Source: a virus
Direction: 5' to 3' (one strand)
Length of the DNA: 59,836 bases
IMG/VR virus record: IMGVR_UViG_3300026184_000061
Span: 1-59,836 of that record
Each line of letters opens with the position of its first letter. The first letter of the stretch is position 1. The translations under genes and the position numbers were made by a program. The notes under the pieces are model-generated. The model saw nothing but the letters and a program-made list of their open reading frames with translations. It had not been told where the DNA came from and searched no databases. This document shows positions 27,226 through 57,032 of the stretch, piece by piece.

Positions 27226-27450
27226 CTAATCCTTGACTCGGCCGCAAAGTTTATAGAGAAACTTGAATCCTATGTTCTCCGGATATTTATCCAGACCGCA
27301 CTTCTCGCAACACCACGCATCACCCATGCCCCCACCGCCGGTTTTGAATCGATGCCAACAGAACCCTTGATTATGCCCGAACCAGAAAATTACAGCGGAC
27401 ACCAACATTAGTGCCCACCACGCGAGCCAGTACATATACGGATTAGGCAT
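27226..27450 (-). CDS. small membrane protein with zinc-finger-like tail
   Basis: A 74-residue protein: one membrane span (MYWLAWWALMLVSAVIFWFG) followed by Cys/His residues, including FCWHRF and CCEKCGLDKYP. A membrane-anchored metal knuckle is likely. It overlaps the thymidylate-synthase-like gene by 8 bp. Function unknown. Confidence 0.55.
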   Translation of the reverse strand: MPNPYMYWLAWWALMLVSAVIFWFGHNQGFCWHRFKTGGGGMGDAWCCEKCGLDKYPENIGFKFLYKLCGRVKD

Positions 27451-28462
27451 TCAGATTCTCCTTCGCTTTCAAGCGGCGTTCAAGCCACTGTACCATCGCT
27501 ATCGTCCAATCGACGTAGTGCGGCATGTGATGCTTTATGATTTCCAGTGCAGAACGAGTGTCGCCGCTCTTATGTCTGAACCACGCTTCGTGGGCGGGTA
27601 ATGCGACCACCCGGAAAAACGGTTCCTTGAAATGACTGGGATCCCAGATACCTGCTTCTGAGTCTATGAAGAACTGTTGTAGTTCGTCATCCCAGCATTT
27701 TGGATTCACTATCAGCGGTATAGGATTTGCACCGAGCTTTTCATATACACTCGTATCCGCGCTAGAAGGACGTATATCTTTCAAAGCGGCCCACAACGGA
27801 TTGTCTACGTAGACATGCAACGAATCTGAGATTTGCCGGTACTCCCCCACTTCCACGCCTACCATCGCTGCGATGTATTCTTGCAGCATGGAAAACTGGA
27901 CTATGTTGGCGCCGTAAGCACCCCAGATGAGATCATTGCTACGACAACAGACAGTCATGTGCAGTCTGCGCTCGCGGATCTTGAAGAAGATCATGTCATT
28001 GCAGGGTATGTCCTTACTTTCTACGTTTAGATCAAGAGTAGGTTTCCATATCGTCAGCACAGCCCGACGAGTGCTGTGTTCCCTGTGCAGCAAATCAATG
28101 ATTTCTTCTATCTGATCTATGTTGTGTGCGGAGCGTAGACGGTAGCCGTAGGGTGCATGGAAGATAAGGCCGTCGTCACTGTACGCCTTCATCTGCTGAT
28201 TGAACTGTGCCAGCCACTTGACATCAGCGCGACCACGCAAAATCCACAAAGATTCCATCAGGTGGAAAAAAGGGTTGGCGTTACGTGCGGCATTGAACAG
28301 AACGCGCTGCTTAGGAAGCTCGTACACCGTACACACCGGCTCACTGAATTCCAGCGTTTTCTGGCCATCTCTTGGGGCTATGGTTCGCGCCGTGTCTTCT
28401 TGCAGCATTTGGATGGCCTTTGGCAACGCTTCGTTGACATCATGCGCTCGGATTACAATCAC
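27443..28462 (-). CDS. thymidylate-synthase-like enzyme, probable dUMP hydroxymethylase
   Basis: A 339-residue protein of the thymidylate synthase fold. The catalytic Cys is at residue 154 (KDIPCNDMIF), followed by CCRSNDLIWGAYGANIVQF, where the Asn near residue 186 matches the position that selects uracil over cytosine, and SDSLHVYVDNP with the conserved His/Tyr. Phage members beside thymine-hypermodification genes make 5-hydroxymethyl-dUMP instead of dTMP. Its neighbours (pyrophosphorylase-like, P-loop and GT-like genes) favour that product; ordinary dTMP synthesis is the alternative. Confidence 0.8.
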   Translation of the reverse strand: MIVIRAHDVNEALPKAIQMLQEDTARTIAPRDGQKTLEFSEPVCTVYELPKQRVLFNAARNANPFFHLMESLWILRGRADVKWLAQFNQQMKAYSDDGLIFHAPYGYRLRSAHNIDQIEEIIDLLHREHSTRRAVLTIWKPTLDLNVESKDIPCNDMIFFKIRERRLHMTVCCRSNDLIWGAYGANIVQFSMLQEYIAAMVGVEVGEYRQISDSLHVYVDNPLWAALKDIRPSSADTSVYEKLGANPIPLIVNPKCWDDELQQFFIDSEAGIWDPSHFKEPFFRVVALPAHEAWFRHKSGDTRSALEIIKHHMPHYVDWTIAMVQWLERRLKAKENLNA

Positions 28463-29396: not shown

Positions 29397-30173
29397 TTAT
29401 TCCTCCAGCTTCAATTGTCTGGTCAGCTTACGTAGATTCTTCGCCAGGGTGGAGTCTAGTTTGTCCGCTTCATACCACGTCATCGGCGTGGATTTACGAA
29501 ACCCCGTACCGCGATTGGCCGCAGGAAGTACCGGCATGTCTACCTTCTCCAGCCCGGCTTTGCGAAGCATCCCCAGCCACTTCTTTTCCATGTCTTTCAG
29601 ACGAATAGTTTCGTCACAATTATCGCGGCAGTTCTTCATCATTTCATAAGTGACTTGAAGACATCGCAGATCTTTCGGGCGTACATAGGGGTCGTCCAGC
29701 AACCCTACTTCTGACATCCATTCATAAGTGGTCAAAGGAAAAATTTTCGCCATACTGCGAGCCACTTCCAGCGGATGACGAACAAGGTTTACGATGTACT
29801 GTGCATCGAAGTCCCCTGCGCGTTCACCTACGTGAACTGTACGTTGGTCCTTCACCCACGAATGATACGGATACCAATGGTGATCGCACTGGAAATACAG
29901 AGAAACAGTGCCGTCCTTGCCGACGTATTCGTGCCCTATGTCGAATCCAGCCGCTTGCAACGTGCGGGCAAGCCACGTTGTTCCGCATCGGCCAGTACCT
30001 ATGACAGCCAGCGGAATACGGATAGAACCGCGAAGCTTGTCTACTCCCCATCGCTCCACCTTTGTACCGCTCTTGTTAGCTGCTTCCGTATTCTCGTAAC
30101 GCCATACTTTACGACCGCTATGATGGGGGGAGAGGATTTCCGGCTTTATTTGAACTCTTCTAAGGTCAGTCAT
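29397..30173 (-). CDS. sulfotransferase-like P-loop enzyme
   Basis: A 258-residue protein; ATG 30173 lies two bases after the upstream stop (a GTG at 30179 is possible). The 5'-phosphosulfate loop GTGRCGTTWLA is at residues 59-69 and the 3'-phosphate motif LVRHPLEVARS at 130-140, the two hallmarks of PAPS-dependent sulfotransferases. It sits between the GT-like gene and the aGPT-pyrophosphorylase-like gene. It may sulfate a DNA base or host glycan, or act as a divergent hydroxyl kinase in thymine hypermodification. Confidence 0.7.
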   Translation of the reverse strand: MTDLRRVQIKPEILSPHHSGRKVWRYENTEAANKSGTKVERWGVDKLRGSIRIPLAVIGTGRCGTTWLARTLQAAGFDIGHEYVGKDGTVSLYFQCDHHWYPYHSWVKDQRTVHVGERAGDFDAQYIVNLVRHPLEVARSMAKIFPLTTYEWMSEVGLLDDPYVRPKDLRCLQVTYEMMKNCRDNCDETIRLKDMEKKWLGMLRKAGLEKVDMPVLPAANRGTGFRKSTPMTWYEADKLDSTLAKNLRKLTRQLKLEE

Positions 30174-30175
30174 GA

Positions 30176-31021
30176 TCACTTCGCTCCTGGATACTTGCTT
30201 CGCGGACGACCTTCGTTATTCTTGGTACGCATGTACTTGTCGAACTCGCACAGGCAATTCTGCAGATTCTGCGCATCCAAGAAGGGCATCTTCTTTTCAG
30301 CGATGAAATCCTGAACCAGAGTGTGCAGTGCCATCAATCTATCACGCCACGCATCTTCTAACCAGGGACTCTCTGGAGGTAGCCCGATAACCCGATTCAA
30401 TCCGCGCCGACTGCCCGGTCCGCTTGCAGCCCAATACTTCCAGTCTTTAGCTTTCTTAAGGACACCGACATGCTTTGTGTCGGCGATGACCTGCGCCGCG
30501 ATGAAGCTGCCCATGCCGTCATACTGCATCAATCGTTCGTGGAAATCGTTTAGAGTATCTCCTTTCTGAGGGCGCAACCTATTCCTGTCTCGCCACAAAG
30601 GCGTCAAAACATGGGTGGCAAGATATTCTGCCTTGTCCATAGCATTCCCATTGGTAGATACGATGTACGCACCGCTGAAAACTTTTTCACGACGCTTCTT
30701 ACGATCGTGCATCACTTTGATAAACTTCTTCGGATTCCACGGTACGGGGTAGCCTATTTCTTCCAGCGTGTCAGGCCAATTGACCAGACGGGCCACGGCC
30801 ATTGCGAACCAGACGTCAGGATCCTTAGCATTCGGCTTCAGCCAATGTTTGTGAATCCACTGCGTAACTGTGTCGTCTTCACGGTAGACGTTACAGAAGC
30901 GATAAGACTGCAAGATCGTGTCTTGCGTCCAAGGTTTAGCACTTCCACAACGACGACGCAGTAGAATACTATACCGTTCTTCTATCCAGTACAGAAGCTT
31001 TTGAAACATGTCTTTCTTCAT
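30176..31021 (-). CDS. alpha-glutamyl/putrescinyl-thymine pyrophosphorylase-like (aGPT-Pplase/HMUDK-helical)
   Basis: A 281-residue protein with the family opening: WIEERYSILLRRRCGSAKPW, TQDTILQSYRFCNVYREDD, then MAVARLVNWPDTLEEIG and a C-terminal helical part with MQYDGMGSFIAAQVIADT and CEFDKYMR. Related proteins act on 5-hydroxymethyl-dU pyrophosphate in phage DNA to replace the pyrophosphate with an amino or other group. It overlaps the genes on either side by 4 bp or less, tying it to the block from 27443. The final modification cannot be read from sequence. Confidence 0.82.
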   Translation of the reverse strand: MKKDMFQKLLYWIEERYSILLRRRCGSAKPWTQDTILQSYRFCNVYREDDTVTQWIHKHWLKPNAKDPDVWFAMAVARLVNWPDTLEEIGYPVPWNPKKFIKVMHDRKKRREKVFSGAYIVSTNGNAMDKAEYLATHVLTPLWRDRNRLRPQKGDTLNDFHERLMQYDGMGSFIAAQVIADTKHVGVLKKAKDWKYWAASGPGSRRGLNRVIGLPPESPWLEDAWRDRLMALHTLVQDFIAEKKMPFLDAQNLQNCLCEFDKYMRTKNNEGRPRSKYPGAK

Positions 31022-49917: not shown

Positions 49918-50526
49918 TCAGGCTCCTTTCTTGAAGGGATGTGCCGACGCTTTAATGAGTATCTTATCCATCAGCACGCCGATGATTGAATGGATGTGAC
50001 TGTCCAGATCGCCGGCGGCTGTGTTCAGGTATATATCCGGCTCCATCGGCGCTTCGTACGGTGCGTCCAGGCCGGTCAGCCCCTCTACGTCACCCATTTC
50101 CGCACGGGCGTACAACCCTTTCGGATCTCGGCTGGCGCACACACGCACGGGCGCATCGCAGTGAACCTCAAGGAAGTCCTTACCGAACAGCTTGCGCACT
50201 TCTTCTCGGTCGCGGGAGTATGGCGACACCATCGCTACGATTGTAATAGTACCCACACGGAGGAACTGATTGGCTACGGCAGCCACGCGCCGCACCGCTT
50301 CGTGTCGGTCAAGGCGTTGGAATCCCAGATCGCGGTTCAGATCTTCTCGGAGTTCGTCACCGTCTAGAACCGTTGACTTGAGCCCCATATCAAACAGCAG
50401 TTGGTCCAGCGCCTGCGCAATCGTGGTCTTCCCCGAAGCGGGTAGTCCCGTGAGCCAGACGATACAACCTCGGTGCTGATTGGCCTGCTCATGACTTTCG
50501 CGAACGTTGCGTACTTCTTCAGTCAT
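49918..50526 (-). CDS. cysC: adenylylsulfate (APS) kinase
   Basis: A 202-residue protein, ATG 50526 chosen. It has the full CysC pattern: Walker A GLPASGKT at 27-34, VLDGDELREDLNRDLGF, HEAVRRVAAVAN, VSPYSRDREEVR, then DPKGLYARAEMGDVEG and LTGLDAPYEAPMEPDI. CysC phosphorylates APS at the 3' position to give PAPS, the universal sulfuryl donor. The sulfotransferase-like protein at 29397 would use PAPS. No sulfate-reduction gene (CysH) is seen, so supplying sulfation is the likelier purpose than sulfur assimilation. Confidence 0.9.
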   Translation of the reverse strand: MTEEVRNVRESHEQANQHRGCIVWLTGLPASGKTTIAQALDQLLFDMGLKSTVLDGDELREDLNRDLGFQRLDRHEAVRRVAAVANQFLRVGTITIVAMVSPYSRDREEVRKLFGKDFLEVHCDAPVRVCASRDPKGLYARAEMGDVEGLTGLDAPYEAPMEPDIYLNTAAGDLDSHIHSIIGVLMDKILIKASAHPFKKGA

Positions 50527-50941
50527 TATCAATCCCCTTCAAAATGCCGTTCAGACGATCAGCCGCTTCGTCGTAAGGGGTAGCCGACTGAACCAATCGG
50601 TCCCGAACAAATTGTAGATCTTCTTTACTTACTAGCGTATAGCCTTCTGGAACGACTGTTTTCTGCTGTTGTAGTGACATACGTAACGCGACCATTCCGT
50701 TGTCTAGATCCACCCATTCGCCGACGCGTACAGACTTTCCATTTGAGTCGTGTACGTCGACAAAGTAGCTATGCCCTGGTCCTGGCGGCTTGTCGAATAC
50801 GACGTCTACATAATCAGGAGGAACTATTTCTGGGTCCGTCATTATATTCTCAAACAGATGCGAAATGAATTCCTTATCTTCAGTATTCTTCGCAGTTTGT
50901 GAAAGAGCCATCAGCATCCACCACAGTTTGGTTTTAGCCAT
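50519..50941 (-). CDS. hypothetical protein
   Basis: A 140-residue protein; ATG 50941 overlaps the upstream stop. It has VGEWVDLDNGMVALRMSLQQ and VPEGYTLVSKEDLQFVRDRL, the second a common C-terminal helix of phage proteins. It overlaps the APS kinase gene by 8 bp. Function unknown. Confidence 0.55.
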   Translation of the reverse strand: MAKTKLWWMLMALSQTAKNTEDKEFISHLFENIMTDPEIVPPDYVDVVFDKPPGPGHSYFVDVHDSNGKSVRVGEWVDLDNGMVALRMSLQQQKTVVPEGYTLVSKEDLQFVRDRLVQSATPYDEAADRLNGILKGIDND

Positions 50942-52164: not shown

Positions 52165-52541
52165 CTCCGAGTTCCCCCGTCATGAAAGAAAAGAACCTGC
52201 GCCGGTAAGCCCGCGCCGAACAGCATATTGCTCACACCGCTTCGCAGGTGCGTGCAGAAGTAATAGTCTGGGCGACTGTACTCGCCGAACTTCGGCACGT
52301 TTTCTCCAATCCCCAATAACCAGTTCCGAACCCGCTCGGTTTCATAATTAGAAATAGGTACGCCTTCTACGACGACTGCGTCCAGGTTCTTTTCGTCGAA
52401 GGCGCGAAGCAATCCAGGATTTGGGGTTATTAGTTGTATCAGATCAACTATGATCAGATCACCCTTACGTCGCGCTTCTTTCATCGCTTCCGCAGTAGCG
52501 CCGCTACCTTGTGCTCCGGTGTAGATGTAAATCTTGTTCAC
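52161..52541 (-). CDS. P-loop-like hypothetical protein
   Basis: A 126-residue protein beginning MNKIYIYTGAQGSGATAEAM, which has the glycine-rich loop shape of a P-loop but lacks the Lys. Later KGDLIIVDLIQLITPNP and DAVVVEGVPIS give a Rossmann-like order. It may bind a nucleotide or be a degenerate kinase. It lies directly downstream of the primase gene with 4 bp overlap. Confidence 0.55.
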   Translation of the reverse strand: MNKIYIYTGAQGSGATAEAMKEARRKGDLIIVDLIQLITPNPGLLRAFDEKNLDAVVVEGVPISNYETERVRNWLLGIGENVPKFGEYSRPDYYFCTHLRSGVSNMLFGAGLPAQVLFFHDGGTRR

Positions 52542-54568
52542 TTCCCCTTACCTCCTTTGATGACCTTGAACTTCTCAGTCTTCTTTTCGGCGTTGGCTTT
52601 GTCCAAAGGGCTGCGACTTCGTTCGTACTCCTTGGCCCACAACCTCGTTTCTTTGCGATTCCATTTATGGGGGTCGCGAATGGCCCACAGCCTCACGCGT
52701 TGTCCATTGCCCATGTAGCCTTGTCGCTGAGCAGGAAACCCCGCCCGACGCAGCGCCCCACCCAAAGCCTTTTCGGTCGTACGTTTCATACCGTCAGGGT
52801 CGTATAGAAAAATGAGCTCCTTGCTGGTAAACATGGCCCGCTCTATCGGCACGCCGTTCACCGTCAAGGTGCTGTCAGGATCGCTGTATAATTGATGGGC
52901 GAAATTGTCCAGGTCCGAACGAGAAAGGTCGATCATATCCATCTTCGCCGAAGTCATCATGGCGTGCGCCTTGGGGTTGAACCCTTCTAGGCTGACTTCG
53001 TTCATGAGATGGTAGAGGAGGTGGGACGCGCCGTCTTCGTGATTGATCCAATGGTCAATGCGATCGTAGAAGCTCATCGGCTTCGGTTTCGCAGTTATTT
53101 CATGCACGGCCACTCGTCGGTCGTTGGTCTCTATGAACAAGGCGTCTGCGTAGTTACTGGTGAAGAACCAATTAGTGCAGTCGCGTAGATTATAATGCGG
53201 TTGGAATTTTTCGTTGATCAGGACTGATTCCTGAGTAATGAGGTCTCGCAGTTTCGCCGCTTCTCTTCGTTTGTCTGATGCGGTCACCTCTTCGCCCATG
53301 ATGAACTGCTTCCCGGCCATCCAGCCGTTGTGCGAAGCGTGCAGGTGCTCTTGACCGATTTTGACGAAGTTACTTTCGCCATAGACACGGCCCATGATAT
53401 AGCCGATGAATGATTTGCCCGTACCGTGCGCGTTGCTGTGCAGTAGTACACAGGAATTCAACTTCGTACCAGGGTGTTGGATCGGATAAGCCAGCCATTG
53501 AATAAACCATTTTTTAAACTTCTTGTCTTCGCTGAAGATGAAGTCCAACAGGTCGTTCCAAGGTTTGATGTTCCCACGCTTCGGTTCCACGCCCCAACCT
53601 GTCCAGGTGTTCAGGTAGTTGTCTTCGGTAATCTGCGGTTCCCCCGGTGCGTACTTCAGTCCTCGGTGCGTGCGCCGCAGCGGCCATGATATCCATTCTT
53701 TCGCCGTACTGACTTTTTTCATATCCCCCGAAGCGGTGAAAGCTACGTGCTGCCGCGTAGCCAAGACCGCGTTGACCAACTTGGTTTCGTTCCACATCTT
53801 CCGAGTACTGAATTCGTAGAACGCGCCGTGTTCTTCAATATAGGCAACCTCGTCGTTGAGCGCCCAGAGCATCGCGCTTTCTTCGTAGGCTACTACATTG
53901 ATATCGTCGACGTCTCCCCCGTCTACGATATAATCGTCTAAGCCTGCTTTCGCTACTTCGCCCGCCGGTACAGGCGGCGCAGGTACTGAACCAATGAAGA
54001 CCTGAGCGCCGAGAGCTGTCAGTTCATCGGCGAGCTTGCGAATGGCTTGTAGAATATTTTGATTCGTGTTCATGTCACTGTCGAACACCAACCAAACTGG
54101 ACGTTCTTCCCATTTAATAAGGTCGAAGTCTTCGATCAAATTCTGACGATGCTTCTTACTGCGAAACGACCACACGCCGCCCAGTCCTATGCAAGGGACG
54201 CCGGACTTGCAAGTCGTCGCAGCTTTTTTCTCACCTTCGGTGATAACAATGCGTTCTTCGGTATCTTCGCCGATGCCTTCCCAATCCATGAGCGGAGGAA
54301 AGTAGAGCCTCGGTGCGGTGCCGCTCGGCTGTTGATAGCGTATTAGCTTCTTACTAAAAGGCTGCTTGACCGGCTCCAAGAAACGGAGTCGGTAAAAATC
54401 GGTAAGCTTTCCTGATGGATCAGGATATGGAATTTTGTAAGATAGGACCTTATGTCGTCCCCCGGTCAACTTGCCGGTTTGCTCAGCGGATAGAAGCTTC
54501 AGCTTCAGTTTCTTCGCATCGTTGGCGCTGAGTCCAGAGCGAGCGAGATCCTCAAGGACTTCTTTCAC
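52538..54568 (-). CDS. primase-helicase, DUF3854 (TOPRIM-like) plus DUF5906
   Basis: A 676-residue protein starting at GTG 54568. The N-terminal third has a DUF3854 TOPRIM-like core (IVITEGEKKAATTCKSG near residue 109, and VWLVFDSD). The C-terminal half has a viral helicase ATPase: LHSNAHGTGKSFIGY near residue 380, KQFIMGEEVTASDK, and WFFTSNYADALFIETNDRR. It is the first gene of the leftward early operon and probably primes and unwinds at the nearby origin candidate. Confidence 0.85.
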   Translation of the reverse strand: MKEVLEDLARSGLSANDAKKLKLKLLSAEQTGKLTGGRHKVLSYKIPYPDPSGKLTDFYRLRFLEPVKQPFSKKLIRYQQPSGTAPRLYFPPLMDWEGIGEDTEERIVITEGEKKAATTCKSGVPCIGLGGVWSFRSKKHRQNLIEDFDLIKWEERPVWLVFDSDMNTNQNILQAIRKLADELTALGAQVFIGSVPAPPVPAGEVAKAGLDDYIVDGGDVDDINVVAYEESAMLWALNDEVAYIEEHGAFYEFSTRKMWNETKLVNAVLATRQHVAFTASGDMKKVSTAKEWISWPLRRTHRGLKYAPGEPQITEDNYLNTWTGWGVEPKRGNIKPWNDLLDFIFSEDKKFKKWFIQWLAYPIQHPGTKLNSCVLLHSNAHGTGKSFIGYIMGRVYGESNFVKIGQEHLHASHNGWMAGKQFIMGEEVTASDKRREAAKLRDLITQESVLINEKFQPHYNLRDCTNWFFTSNYADALFIETNDRRVAVHEITAKPKPMSFYDRIDHWINHEDGASHLLYHLMNEVSLEGFNPKAHAMMTSAKMDMIDLSRSDLDNFAHQLYSDPDSTLTVNGVPIERAMFTSKELIFLYDPDGMKRTTEKALGGALRRAGFPAQRQGYMGNGQRVRLWAIRDPHKWNRKETRLWAKEYERSRSPLDKANAEKKTEKFKVIKGGKGK

Positions 54569-54611
54569 GACGGATTCTCCATCTTATAATTCGTAAAAAA
54601 TGCCGCGCCAC
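54552..54611 (-). CDS. candidate leader peptide overlapping the primase start
   Basis: GTG 54611 has a near-perfect ribosome site (AGGAGGAG at 54623-54616) and opens a 19-codon Arg-rich frame (ARHFLRIIRWRIRRERSP after the start) that ends at TGA 54552, inside the primase gene. Its start lies in the 3' arm of the leader hairpin. Translation could couple to primase or control the hairpin. Confidence 0.35.
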   Translation of the reverse strand: MARHFLRIIRWRIRRERSP

Positions 54612-54684
54612 GTCTCTCCTCCTCTAAGGTTCGACAAGGGGGGAGAGCCAAGACCGGAGTCGGAGATATACGACGTGGCGCGGC
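54595..54684 (-). promoter_or_regulatory. leader hairpin followed by T run (possible attenuator)
   Basis: GCCGCGCCACGTC at 54602-54614 and GACGTGGCGCGGC at 54672-54684 pair perfectly over 13 bp. In the leftward RNA the stem is followed by ATTTTTT (54601-54595), an intrinsic-terminator form, between the promoter and the primase start. A ribosome site sits in the loop side. The 57-base interior is rich in purine/pyrimidine tracts that could form alternatives. Confidence 0.6.
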
Positions 54685-54726
54685 CAACAACGTTGTCTAG
54701 TGCCCCAGGCGGGTACACTAGCGGCA

Positions 54727-54756
54727 AATATACTGTGAAACGGTGCACCCCTGCAA
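54727..54756 (-). promoter_or_regulatory. candidate early leftward promoter
   Basis: On the minus strand TTGCAG (54756-54751) and TATATT (54732-54727) are 18 bases apart. A start near 54720 would give a 150-base leader containing the hairpin. The operator-like palindrome lies upstream, centred near -71. The -35 is weak, which fits dependence on an activator. Confidence 0.5.
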
Positions 54757-54775
54757 CTACCAATTTTTAGCCAGC

Positions 54776-54807
54776 GGTCACTGTTTGATCTGGATCAAAA
54801 CGTGACC
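54776..54807. promoter_or_regulatory. 32-bp operator-like palindrome
   Basis: Two 15-bp arms, GGTCACTGTTTGATC and GATCAAAACGTGACC, separated by TG; each arm matches the site type GGTCA-N5-TGATC seen elsewhere. The centre TTGAT-CTGG-ATCAA also fits the FNR/Anr box exactly. It lies between the early promoter and the iteron array. Confidence 0.6.
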
Positions 54808-54902
54808 AAACAAAATTTTTACGCTTGATTTCGGAGCACTTTGATCTGAGTACGGGGGAGCTGCGACGCGTTGCGCGAAAACTCTCGGAATGGTCCGATT
54901 TT

Positions 54903-55286
54903 AACTCACGTTGGCCCTGGTGGGGTGCGAGATAGATCGGAGCTATTTCGCGGATGGGTGAAAAAGGTCGGATAACTCAGGTTCGAAGGCCTATAACACA
55001 CGTTTAACTCACGTTTTTTGGCATTAGGAAATTCTGCACTTAGATCGAGTATTCTCTGGGATAATTAAAATTTTAACTCGCTTTACTCACTTTACTCACG
55101 TTCGACGCGAACGCATTTATATATCCCCAGCCAGGGCCCTCCCCATCGAAGTTCTAATTTCTTTCCTAAAGTGAGTAAAGTGAGTTAAAAAATAGATATT
55201 CCCTATAAATACTCGAATAAACCTCCGAATTTCCGTTTGGCTCGAACGTGAGTTTTAACTCACGTTGTACCCGAGTAACGTGAGTT
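54903..55286. repeat. iteron-like array of AACTCACGTT (candidate origin)
   Basis: Exact AACTCACGTT at 54903-54912, 55006-55015 and 55257-55266, and its reverse AACGTGAGTT at 55245-55254 and 55277-55286. The copies at 55245 and 55257 make a perfect 22-bp palindrome. One-mismatch copies lie at 54974, 54995 and 55093. A TTTACTCAC doublet at 55082-55099 is mirrored by GTGAGTAAAGTGAGTT at 55171-55186 around an AT-rich, TATATA-containing segment. The rest of this 900-base region holds no gene. Iterons plus AT-rich DNA suggest a replication origin; an operator array is the alternative. Confidence 0.7.
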
Positions 55287-55406
55287 ATTTCGCTGTCGTC
55301 CTCCCCCACCCATTCGAGCGTCGACTCACCCAAGCACGATCTATGCTACCCGAACGAAGTTACTCCGATATTGCGTCCCCAGGGCCTTGTGCCCCGCACC
55401 CGCGTA

Positions 55407-55436
55407 TTGTCCCCGCCTACTGGTTTTAGGTAGTAT
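55407..55436 (+). promoter_or_regulatory. candidate rightward promoter for the packaging operon
   Basis: TTGTCC at 55407-55412 and TAGTAT at 55431-55436 with 18-base spacing, about 38 bases before the GTG of the small terminase gene. Match to the sigma-70 consensus is moderate. Confidence 0.4.
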
Positions 55437-55473
55437 ATTCACCATCGTTGGTCAATCAGTAGCAGGGGGCTCC

Positions 55474-55782
55474 GTGCCGCGTAGCCGAGAAACATCTTCC
55501 AGAGGTCGGAAGACATCGTCAAAGACGAAGTCCGAGAAGACTGATCTGATCGAACCGAAAAAGTCGAAGAAGCAGGACGTTTCCAAGATGCTGCCTCACG
55601 AACTTCTTCTTGCGATCTCACGAGGCCAAGTCATCAACGGTCATCGCCCGACATTCCAAGAACGATTGCACGCCGCCAAGGCCGCTGCTCCGTTCTATGC
55701 TCCGAAGCTTCAGAGTACGACGATGAAAGGGAGCGAAGACGAGCCAGTCGTTACGCACGCCAAGGTGAGCTTCGTAGAATGA
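55474..55782 (+). CDS. small terminase-like subunit
   Basis: A 102-residue protein from GTG 55474 with AGGGGG upstream; longer frames run into the promoter region. A basic, Ser/Lys-rich start is followed by MLPHELLLAISRGQ and PTFQERLHAAKAAAPFYAPK, a helical pattern found in small DNA-binding proteins encoded just before the large terminase. It overlaps terL by 4 bp. It would recognise the packaging site. Confidence 0.7.
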   Translation: MPRSRETSSRGRKTSSKTKSEKTDLIEPKKSKKQDVSKMLPHELLLAISRGQVINGHRPTFQERLHAAKAAAPFYAPKLQSTTMKGSEDEPVVTHAKVSFVE

Positions 55783-57032
55783 GCGTGCCACTCGGAACTC
55801 TTTCGGAACGAATCGTAGATGTTGAGATTCCGAAGAAGCTCAAGTTTCTATTTGAACCGCATCGCTACAAGGTCGCTCATGGAGGACGCGGAGGAACGAA
55901 GTCGTGGAACTTCGCTCGCGCGCTCCTAGTTATCGGAGTGACTCGCCCTATCCGCGTACTCTGCACTCGCGAACTTCAGACTTCAATTCAAGAATCCGTA
56001 CACAAGGTTCTGTCATCTCAGATAGAATTACTTGGCTTTGATTCATTCTACAAAATTCAGAAGACAACGATCGAAGGAATCAACGGTACAGAATTCATCT
56101 TCGCGGGCGTTCGCAACAATGTCACGAAGATCAAATCCATGGAAGGGATTGATATTTGCTGGGTAGAGGAAGCCGAGAAAGTCTCGGACGATTCATGGAA
56201 AGTTCTCATTCCTACGATCCGAGAAGCTGGTTCTGAAATCTGGGTTAGCTTCAATCCCCATGAGGCGACAGATCCTACTTATAAACGTTTCGTGCTGCAT
56301 CCTCCGCCGGATGCGAAGGTCGTAGAAATTGGCTGGCAAGATAATCCTTGGTTCCCTGAAGAATTAGAAAAAGAACGTCAGTACTCGTTGAGTCTGATTG
56401 AAGAAGCGAAGGACGAGCACGAACGACAGCAAGCTCAGATGGATTATGATCACATCTGGGAGGGCAAGGTCCGCACCAATACGAAGGCGGGTGTCATCAA
56501 ACGCTGGAGAATTGAAGCGTTTGAAACTCCAGCTAAAGCTCGCTTCTATCACGGTGCGGATTGGGGCTTCGCTAACGATCCGACAGTCCTCATTCGGTGT
56601 TTCGTAGAAGATGATATTCTATACATTGATCAGGAAGCATTTGGCTATGGTGTAGAAATCGACGAGATTCCGCAGCTCTTTGATACGATAGAGACCGCTC
56701 GGAAATGGCCGATCAAAGCGGATAACGCTCGCCCCGAAACGATTTCGTATCTGAAACGTCAGGGCTTTAGCATTTCGCCCGCCGATAAATGGAAAGGCAA
56801 CGTTGAAGATGGCGTCGCGCATATCAACGGATTCAAGCGTATCGTCATTCATCCGAGATGCAGACACATCGCCGAAGAAGCGCGGCTGTATTCCTATAAG
56901 ATAGACAAAGTCACTGAGGAAATCCTTCCCATCATCGTAGACGCATACAATCACGGATGGGATTCCGTGCGCTACGCTCTGGATAAATACATTAAACGAC
57001 GCGGCGGAACGGGCGTCTGGGCTAAACTTTAG
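55779..57032 (+). CDS. terL: terminase large subunit
   Basis: A 417-residue packaging motor of the PBSX/Terminase_3 type. Walker A GGRGGTKS is at 35-42, Walker B CWVEEAE at about 127-133, the coupling segment VSFNPHEATDP follows, and the RNase-H-like nuclease starts FYHGADWGFANDPTVLI with later KADNARPETISYL. It cuts and pumps DNA into the prohead through the portal encoded next. Confidence 0.94.
   Translation: MSVPLGTLSERIVDVEIPKKLKFLFEPHRYKVAHGGRGGTKSWNFARALLVIGVTRPIRVLCTRELQTSIQESVHKVLSSQIELLGFDSFYKIQKTTIEGINGTEFIFAGVRNNVTKIKSMEGIDICWVEEAEKVSDDSWKVLIPTIREAGSEIWVSFNPHEATDPTYKRFVLHPPPDAKVVEIGWQDNPWFPEELEKERQYSLSLIEEAKDEHERQQAQMDYDHIWEGKVRTNTKAGVIKRWRIEAFETPAKARFYHGADWGFANDPTVLIRCFVEDDILYIDQEAFGYGVEIDEIPQLFDTIETARKWPIKADNARPETISYLKRQGFSISPADKWKGNVEDGVAHINGFKRIVIHPRCRHIAEEARLYSYKIDKVTEEILPIIVDAYNHGWDSVRYALDKYIKRRGGTGVWAKL

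Follow-up and report, generated by a model that had tools for sequence, protein, structure and literature searches.

A candidate P4/SaPI-like iteron origin upstream of the primase-helicase gene in an autonomous phage

The closest described counterparts of the locus analysed here are P4, the PICIs, SCCmec Cch2, and a group of cultured phages. The P4 record (NC_001609) annotates 'ori type 1 repeats' TGTTCACC/GGTGAACA. In its crr, a tandem pair with a 9-bp step lies 35 bp from the inverted pair that it faces; in its ori, a single copy faces two others, and the gap between them is AT-rich and 35 bp long. P4 alpha carries TOPRIM, DUF5906, and Pox_D5 C-terminal domains, of which DUF5906 is common to the protein considered below. 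PICI origins consist of two iteron sets around an AT-rich region (PMC6092414). In SCCmec, the C-terminal domain of Cch2 binds its origin repeats, which have an AAGTG iteron (PMC7581432). Among the Mesyanzhinovviridae and related phages, AXL3 and PW916 encode a homologue of our primase at about 37% identity, PW916 has terL and portal divergent from the primase as in the window, and a large inverted repeat occupies the corresponding region. The searched passages of the AXL3 and Lydia papers report no origin.

Here we describe a repeat array that is probably a replication origin of the P4/SaPI-like iteron type, bound by the phage's own primase-helicase.

The repeat array and its genome setting

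The window is the whole virus record of 59,836 bp. A 127-bp repeat at its ends indicates that the record is a complete closed circle of 59,709 bp; the report on Lydia, a circularly permuted, headful-packaging relative, describes the same 127-bp assembly repeat (PMC11946847). On the minus strand, replication and nucleotide genes extend from 54.6 kb down to ~24 kb; on the plus strand, genes for packaging, head, and tail begin at 55.4 kb and continue across the record end as far as ~24 kb. The minus strand also encodes an APS kinase (49918-50532; PF01583 E 5e-59), a 5-hmdU DNA kinase (29397-30179), a thymidylate synthase homologue (30176-31021), and a weak sulfotransferase match (27443-28462; E 2.7e-4, below cutoff). 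Together these four point to a possible thymine hypermodification pathway, perhaps with sulfate.

The array lies where the two operons diverge. Its neighbours are those given in the preliminary description, which placed it between divergent operons next to the primase-helicase gene: the latter on one side and the genes for terminase large subunit, portal, and head morphogenesis on the plus strand. As that description also held, the array contains no gene. The features, with strand where one applies, are:

54569-55473: divergent intergenic region with putative origin; no ORF of at least 60 aa overlaps 54569-55386
54903-55286: iteron array, 12 copies of the AACTCACGTT family
54903-54912, plus: iteron, exact
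54974-54983, plus: iteron, one mismatch, AACTCAGGTT
54995-55004, plus: iteron, one mismatch, AACACACGTT
55006-55015, plus: iteron, exact
55041-55080: AT-rich stretch, 70% AT, left of the core
55075-55084, plus: degenerate iteron AACTCGCTTT with two mismatches, 9 bp ahead of the following copy
55084-55102, plus: inner tandem pair of iterons TACTCACTT-TACTCACGTT with a 9-bp period, oriented inward
55103-55167: 65-bp core spacer between the facing iterons; proposed site of first strand opening or helicase loading
55168-55186, minus: inner tandem pair of iterons AAAGTGAGT-AAAGTGAGTT with a 9-bp period, oriented towards the left set
55161-55200: AT-rich stretch, 75% AT, right of the core
55245-55266: inverted pair of exact iterons with TT spacer; a hairpin as single strand
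55277-55286, minus: iteron, exact

Across the whole 59,836-bp record, AACTCACGTT occurs as five exact copies, at 54903 (+), 55006 (+), 55245 (-), 55257 (+), and 55277 (-), with none outside 54903-55286; the genome-wide count thus bears out the five copies in both orientations noted earlier and finds none scattered over coding DNA. Four one-mismatch copies fall in the array (54974, 54995, 55093, and 55177), where at least three had been claimed, and only four in the remaining genome. With up to one mismatch allowed, the genome holds 13 matches, compared with a shuffle mean of 3.8 and a maximum of 9. The 9-mer ACTCACGTT, with one mismatch allowed, has 11 copies within 384 bp. A twelfth, weaker copy read from the sequence, AACTCGCTTT, lengthens the left tandem and brings the total to 12, five exact and seven degenerate. 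The best motif of any kind reached 5 copies in 600 dinucleotide shuffles of 54569-55473, against 11 in the real sequence, and the best motif elsewhere in the genome has 7. The array is far above chance and unique in the genome, and it has the pattern of an iteron-type origin, one short sequence clustered in a non-coding region and absent elsewhere. No Rfam family matches the array region.

At the centre, the facing tandems TTTACTCACTTTACTCACGTT (55082-55102) and AAAGTGAGTAAAGTGAGTTAA (55168-55188) stand 65 bp apart, each with a 9-bp period, and outlying copies lie 68-78 bp past the inner tandems on both sides, beyond the AT-rich flanks. As in PICI/SaPI origins, two iteron sets (55084-55102 and 55168-55186) surround a central region. 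AT-rich DNA, at 70-75% AT, flanks the inner pairs just outside the tandems, and the mid-core is GC-rich; the earlier statement that the repeats are surrounded by AT-rich DNA holds for 55041-55080 and 55161-55200 and fails for the mid-core. A second claim needs correction: 55245-55266, taken for a perfect 22-bp palindrome, is two perfect 10-bp arms around TT, or 20 of 22 bp.

GC skew, proposed earlier as a check, has its minimum near 55 kb. Because gene orientation switches at the same place, we set the skew aside as independent evidence. The arms from the array to the operon convergence near 24 kb are nearly equal, at 28.4-28.8 and 30.9-31.3 kb. Skew and arm lengths are both compatible with a bidirectional origin, but gene orientation confounds the two of them.

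The adjoining primase-helicase and its leader

The primase-helicase gene starts 335 bp from the array, which places a candidate initiator gene close to the iterons.

52538-54568, minus: primase-helicase, proposed initiator, with DUF3854 TOPRIM-type primase, DUF5906 SF3/D5-type helicase, and C-terminal winged-helix-like domain
52634-52951, minus: C-terminal winged-helix-like domain, residues 540-645, proposed iteron-binding domain

The 676-aa protein matches DUF3854 and DUF5906 (DUF5906 E 1.2e-18). It combines the two parts of a self-loading primase-helicase of the P4 alpha or SaPI Rep kind, an SF3/D5-type helicase with a Walker A motif (GTGKS) and a primase domain with TOPRIM-type motifs (TEGE and DSD). 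In VIA-align, the AlphaFold model of the protein (mean pLDDT 92.6) aligns with the C-terminal region of the NrS-1 primase (Z 28.4, rmsd 4.4 A, 375 residues) and, over residues 229-651, with the SaPI5 primase-helicase PriRep (Z 18.5-18.7, 352-354 residues). It also aligns with the dsDNA-bound form of PriRep1 (Z 15.3), and its N-terminal part resembles DnaG primases (Z about 14-15). Folded alone, the last domain matches winged-helix regulators as well as the C-terminal region of NrS-1, at modest Z values (about 5-6). The window protein gave no Pox_D5 sequence match, and a profile comparison with P4 alpha aligned the helicase core alone, with a probability of 21%. The P4 origin-binding domain is absent from the PDB matches listed for the C-terminal domain, an absence that excludes nothing. 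As modelled, the protein appears to have the architecture of self-loading, origin-binding primase-helicases.

Between the array and this gene lies a further structure:

54602-54684, minus: long GC-rich hairpin in the primase 5' leader, 13-bp stem, z -5.2

Many relatives likewise have a long leader hairpin between array and primase. In our stem test, a score of at least 20 was reached in 35 of 87 regions upstream of the gene, in 9 of 85 downstream regions, and in 8 of 87 segments within the gene; some of the stems counted are iteron arrays themselves. About 30 loci, including AXL3 and PW916, have CCUCAGCAA invariant in the loop of a long leader stem. The elements run in the order TAGAAT-like box, long stem (sequence varying, pairing kept), CCUCAGCAA loop, small hairpin, and GCUGAGG, which is complementary to CCUCAGC. 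The loop of the small hairpin, GGCUG(A/G)G, is invariant, and five of its base pairs show compensatory changes. Examples are L139:3740-3915, L142:1736-1911, L168:3072-3247, L087:746-853, and L088:3691-3798, with about 25 more. The window is not among them, and the CCUCAGCAA signature is absent from the corresponding place in its hairpin at 54602-54684. The element, for which Rfam gave no match, looks like an undescribed structured leader RNA.

Recurrence in relatives and competing readings

Primase homologues were gathered from virus contigs, genomes, and phage records. An array was scored where one motif had at least 7 copies, with at least 2 on each strand; the both-strand requirement was adopted because plain repeat counting scored high in coding low-complexity repeats. 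Arrays lie upstream of the homologous primase in at least 14 of 79 relatives, as against 1 of 73 downstream stretches and 0 of 40 stretches of the window, and many relatives have no array detectable by this both-strand test. Each lineage has its own repeat (L006 TTATTTCGC, L098 AGGTGTAAC, L164 TGTGTAAAT, L140 TGTTACGA, L113 AAGTGTAAA, L119 GTGATACAG), as do L112, L117, L126, L129, L134, and others, which is why a nucleotide search for AACTCACGTT in the loci collected at that stage returned no cluster. Conservation in relatives, suggested earlier as a check, thus takes the form of a recurring period, orientation, and spacing with unrelated repeat sequences. The step between neighbouring same-strand copies clusters at 8-9 bp, and the facing sets are 59-69 bp apart in 11 of the 14 loci aligned on their centre, some of these centres having been picked with the geometry in mind. 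In the aligned loci, mean AT drops from about 0.7 in the DNA up to about 60 bp from the centre to about 0.48 at distances above 200 bp. When motifs were oriented by similarity to the P4 iteron instead, the pattern was broader: divergent pairs were most frequent at 60-90 bp, convergent ones at 30-70 bp.

These loci bear on which protein would recognise the repeats. In several relatives a further gene separates the array from the primase (L006, 95 aa; L091, 195 aa; L129, 200 aa), and iteron sequence co-varies with the C-terminal domain of the primase-helicase weakly and without significance (Mantel r 0.22, p 0.06). Both facts would suit an origin recognised by another protein, a small phage initiator or a host protein, which is a variant that overlaps our preferred reading. 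We regard it as unlikely: the window and other relatives have no gene between array and primase, the primase-helicase is the one neighbour they all have in common, and proteins of its fold class are known to bind their own origins.

The position between divergent operons would also suit transcriptional control. The genome has just two copies of the octamer AGTATATT, which flank the array in divergent orientation:

54727-54734, minus: AGTATATT, lying 169 bp from the array, putative -10 region for the primase operon
55432-55439, plus: AGTATATT, lying 146 bp from the array, putative -10 region for the packaging operon

If both are -10 regions, the array lies between the putative promoters and not on them; a sigma-70 consensus scan found nothing above chance. 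The repeats could be operators through which a transcription regulator of phage or host origin switches the divergent early and late operons, and the inverted pair at 55245-55266 does resemble a dimer operator. Simple occlusion would be unlikely, however, with the putative promoters 146-169 bp away, and the subset of early proteins examined includes no Pfam transcription factor. A regulator would not account for the P4-like tandem pairs and AT-rich core, and the same facing geometry recurs beside different primases with different neighbours. We consider an operator array an improbable explanation.

Terminase genes adjoin the array on its other side:

55474-55782, plus: probable terminase small subunit (terS), assigned by position, with probable start GTG at 55474
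55779-57032, plus: terminase large subunit (phrog_3717, E 1.4e-63)

The terS candidate is weakly similar to small ORFs upstream of terL in relatives and has no family or database match. Across relatives, arrays follow primase-helicase genes and do not follow terminase genes, as a pac site would. In L134, L126, L091, and L140 the array is kept by the primase, and the gene on the divergent side encodes a large terminase from a different family; TerL families beside primase-associated arrays include phrog_3717/2, phrog_9, phrog_979, and phrog_5902. The array is also kept in L119, with a lysozyme-like divergent gene, and in L175, with no adjoining terminase. TerL relatives without a homologous primase usually lack an array, and the control arrays they do show mostly adjoin another primase-helicase: a Toprim_2 protein with a VapE-like domain in L016 and L018, and AAA_25 primase-helicases in L043, L046, and L053. 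Left over are L061 and L066, both counted against the origin reading; the copies in L066:3550-4030 fall within a long ORF whose imperfect direct repeats are spaced by about 230 bp, apparently a coding repeat scored as an array. Although the array ends 188 bp from the start of the probable terS, pac sites are often near terS, and the 127-bp end repeat is of the kind seen in the headful-packaging relative Lydia (PMC11946847), a pac site marked by repeats that bind the small terminase subunit is very improbable, given that the array persists with unrelated TerL families or none adjoining and that close TerL relatives without the homologous primase are mostly array-free, most exceptions adjoining another primase-helicase.

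Some of the loci beside primase-helicases of other families show another repeat style (CCGGTGCAA; GGAACC), namely L018:1349-4640, L043:1498-3980, and L046:1190-3750. This suggests that the iteron principle extends beyond the primase family of the window.

A proposed origin and its place among known systems

We propose that the array is a replication origin recognised by the phage's own primase-helicase, a reading we hold to be likely. The origin suggested in the preliminary description is supported in kind, as the geometry recurs in distant relatives, follows the primase-helicase, and matches the P4 repeats in polarity and tandem period. From the array, its geometry and recurrence, its association with the primase, and the domain architecture we infer protein binding, strand opening, and initiation as follows. 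The C-terminal winged-helix-like domain would bind the 9-bp iterons, and the inner sets, facing across the 65-bp core, would position two helicase rings in opposite orientations. The core or the AT-rich flanks would then open and the rings be loaded. The TOPRIM domain would prime and the phage family-A polymerase extend, sending two forks, co-directional with transcription, into both divergent operons.

Origins of this kind are already known. The open-access literature searched gave no account of their systematic occurrence in such phages, upstream of the primase gene and with facing sets separated by a spacer of roughly 65 bp. It is an even call whether a large unrecognised group of autonomous tailed phages initiates like P4 and satellites, with facing iterons, about 65 bp apart, that place two primase-helicase rings head to head, and with a lineage-specific iteron 'password'. 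If so, a layout described as limited to PICIs would be a design shared by phages and satellites with D5-type primase-helicases, tying the two together through their origins. The origins of dozens of uncultivated phages and of cultured relatives would be predictable from sequence alone, many natural initiator-iteron pairs would be available for deriving the recognition rule of this helicase class, and origin incompatibility between phage and satellite would become testable.

Set against the known systems, the window is like P4 in its 9-bp tandem pairs, its inward-facing sets, and their polarity, with the GTG-containing strand outward; read outward from the centre, the repeats are GGTGAACA in P4, GGTGTAACA in L098, AAGTGTAAA in L113, and AAAGTGAGT in the window. 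P4 differs in that its facing sets are 35 bp apart instead of about 65 bp and its function is split between ori and crr instead of held in one region, and the window protein has DUF3854 in place of the Toprim_3 of P4 alpha and lacks a Pox_D5 sequence match. In the Mesyanzhinovviridae and related phages, the arrays are short and poorly resolved by our test. Cch2 parallels the proposed use of a helicase C-terminal domain as binder of short direct repeats, but has only three iterons, no facing array, a separate polymerase-primase, and a putative origin downstream of the helicase gene. SaPIs and PICIs share with the window two iteron sets around a centre, lineage-specific repeats, and a D5-class helicase (PMC6092414). 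PICI origins lie 3' of the rep gene, whereas the window array lies 5' of the primase-helicase gene, between divergent operons, and the SaPI5 primase is of AEP type (PMC7581432) whereas that of the window is TOPRIM. Unlike SaPIs and PICIs, the phage is autonomous, with no integrase detected and no sign of satellite life. By their anatomy, the arrays would work like the origins of P4, PICIs, and Cch2, and would differ from them in position, in spacer length, and in belonging to phages that are not satellites.
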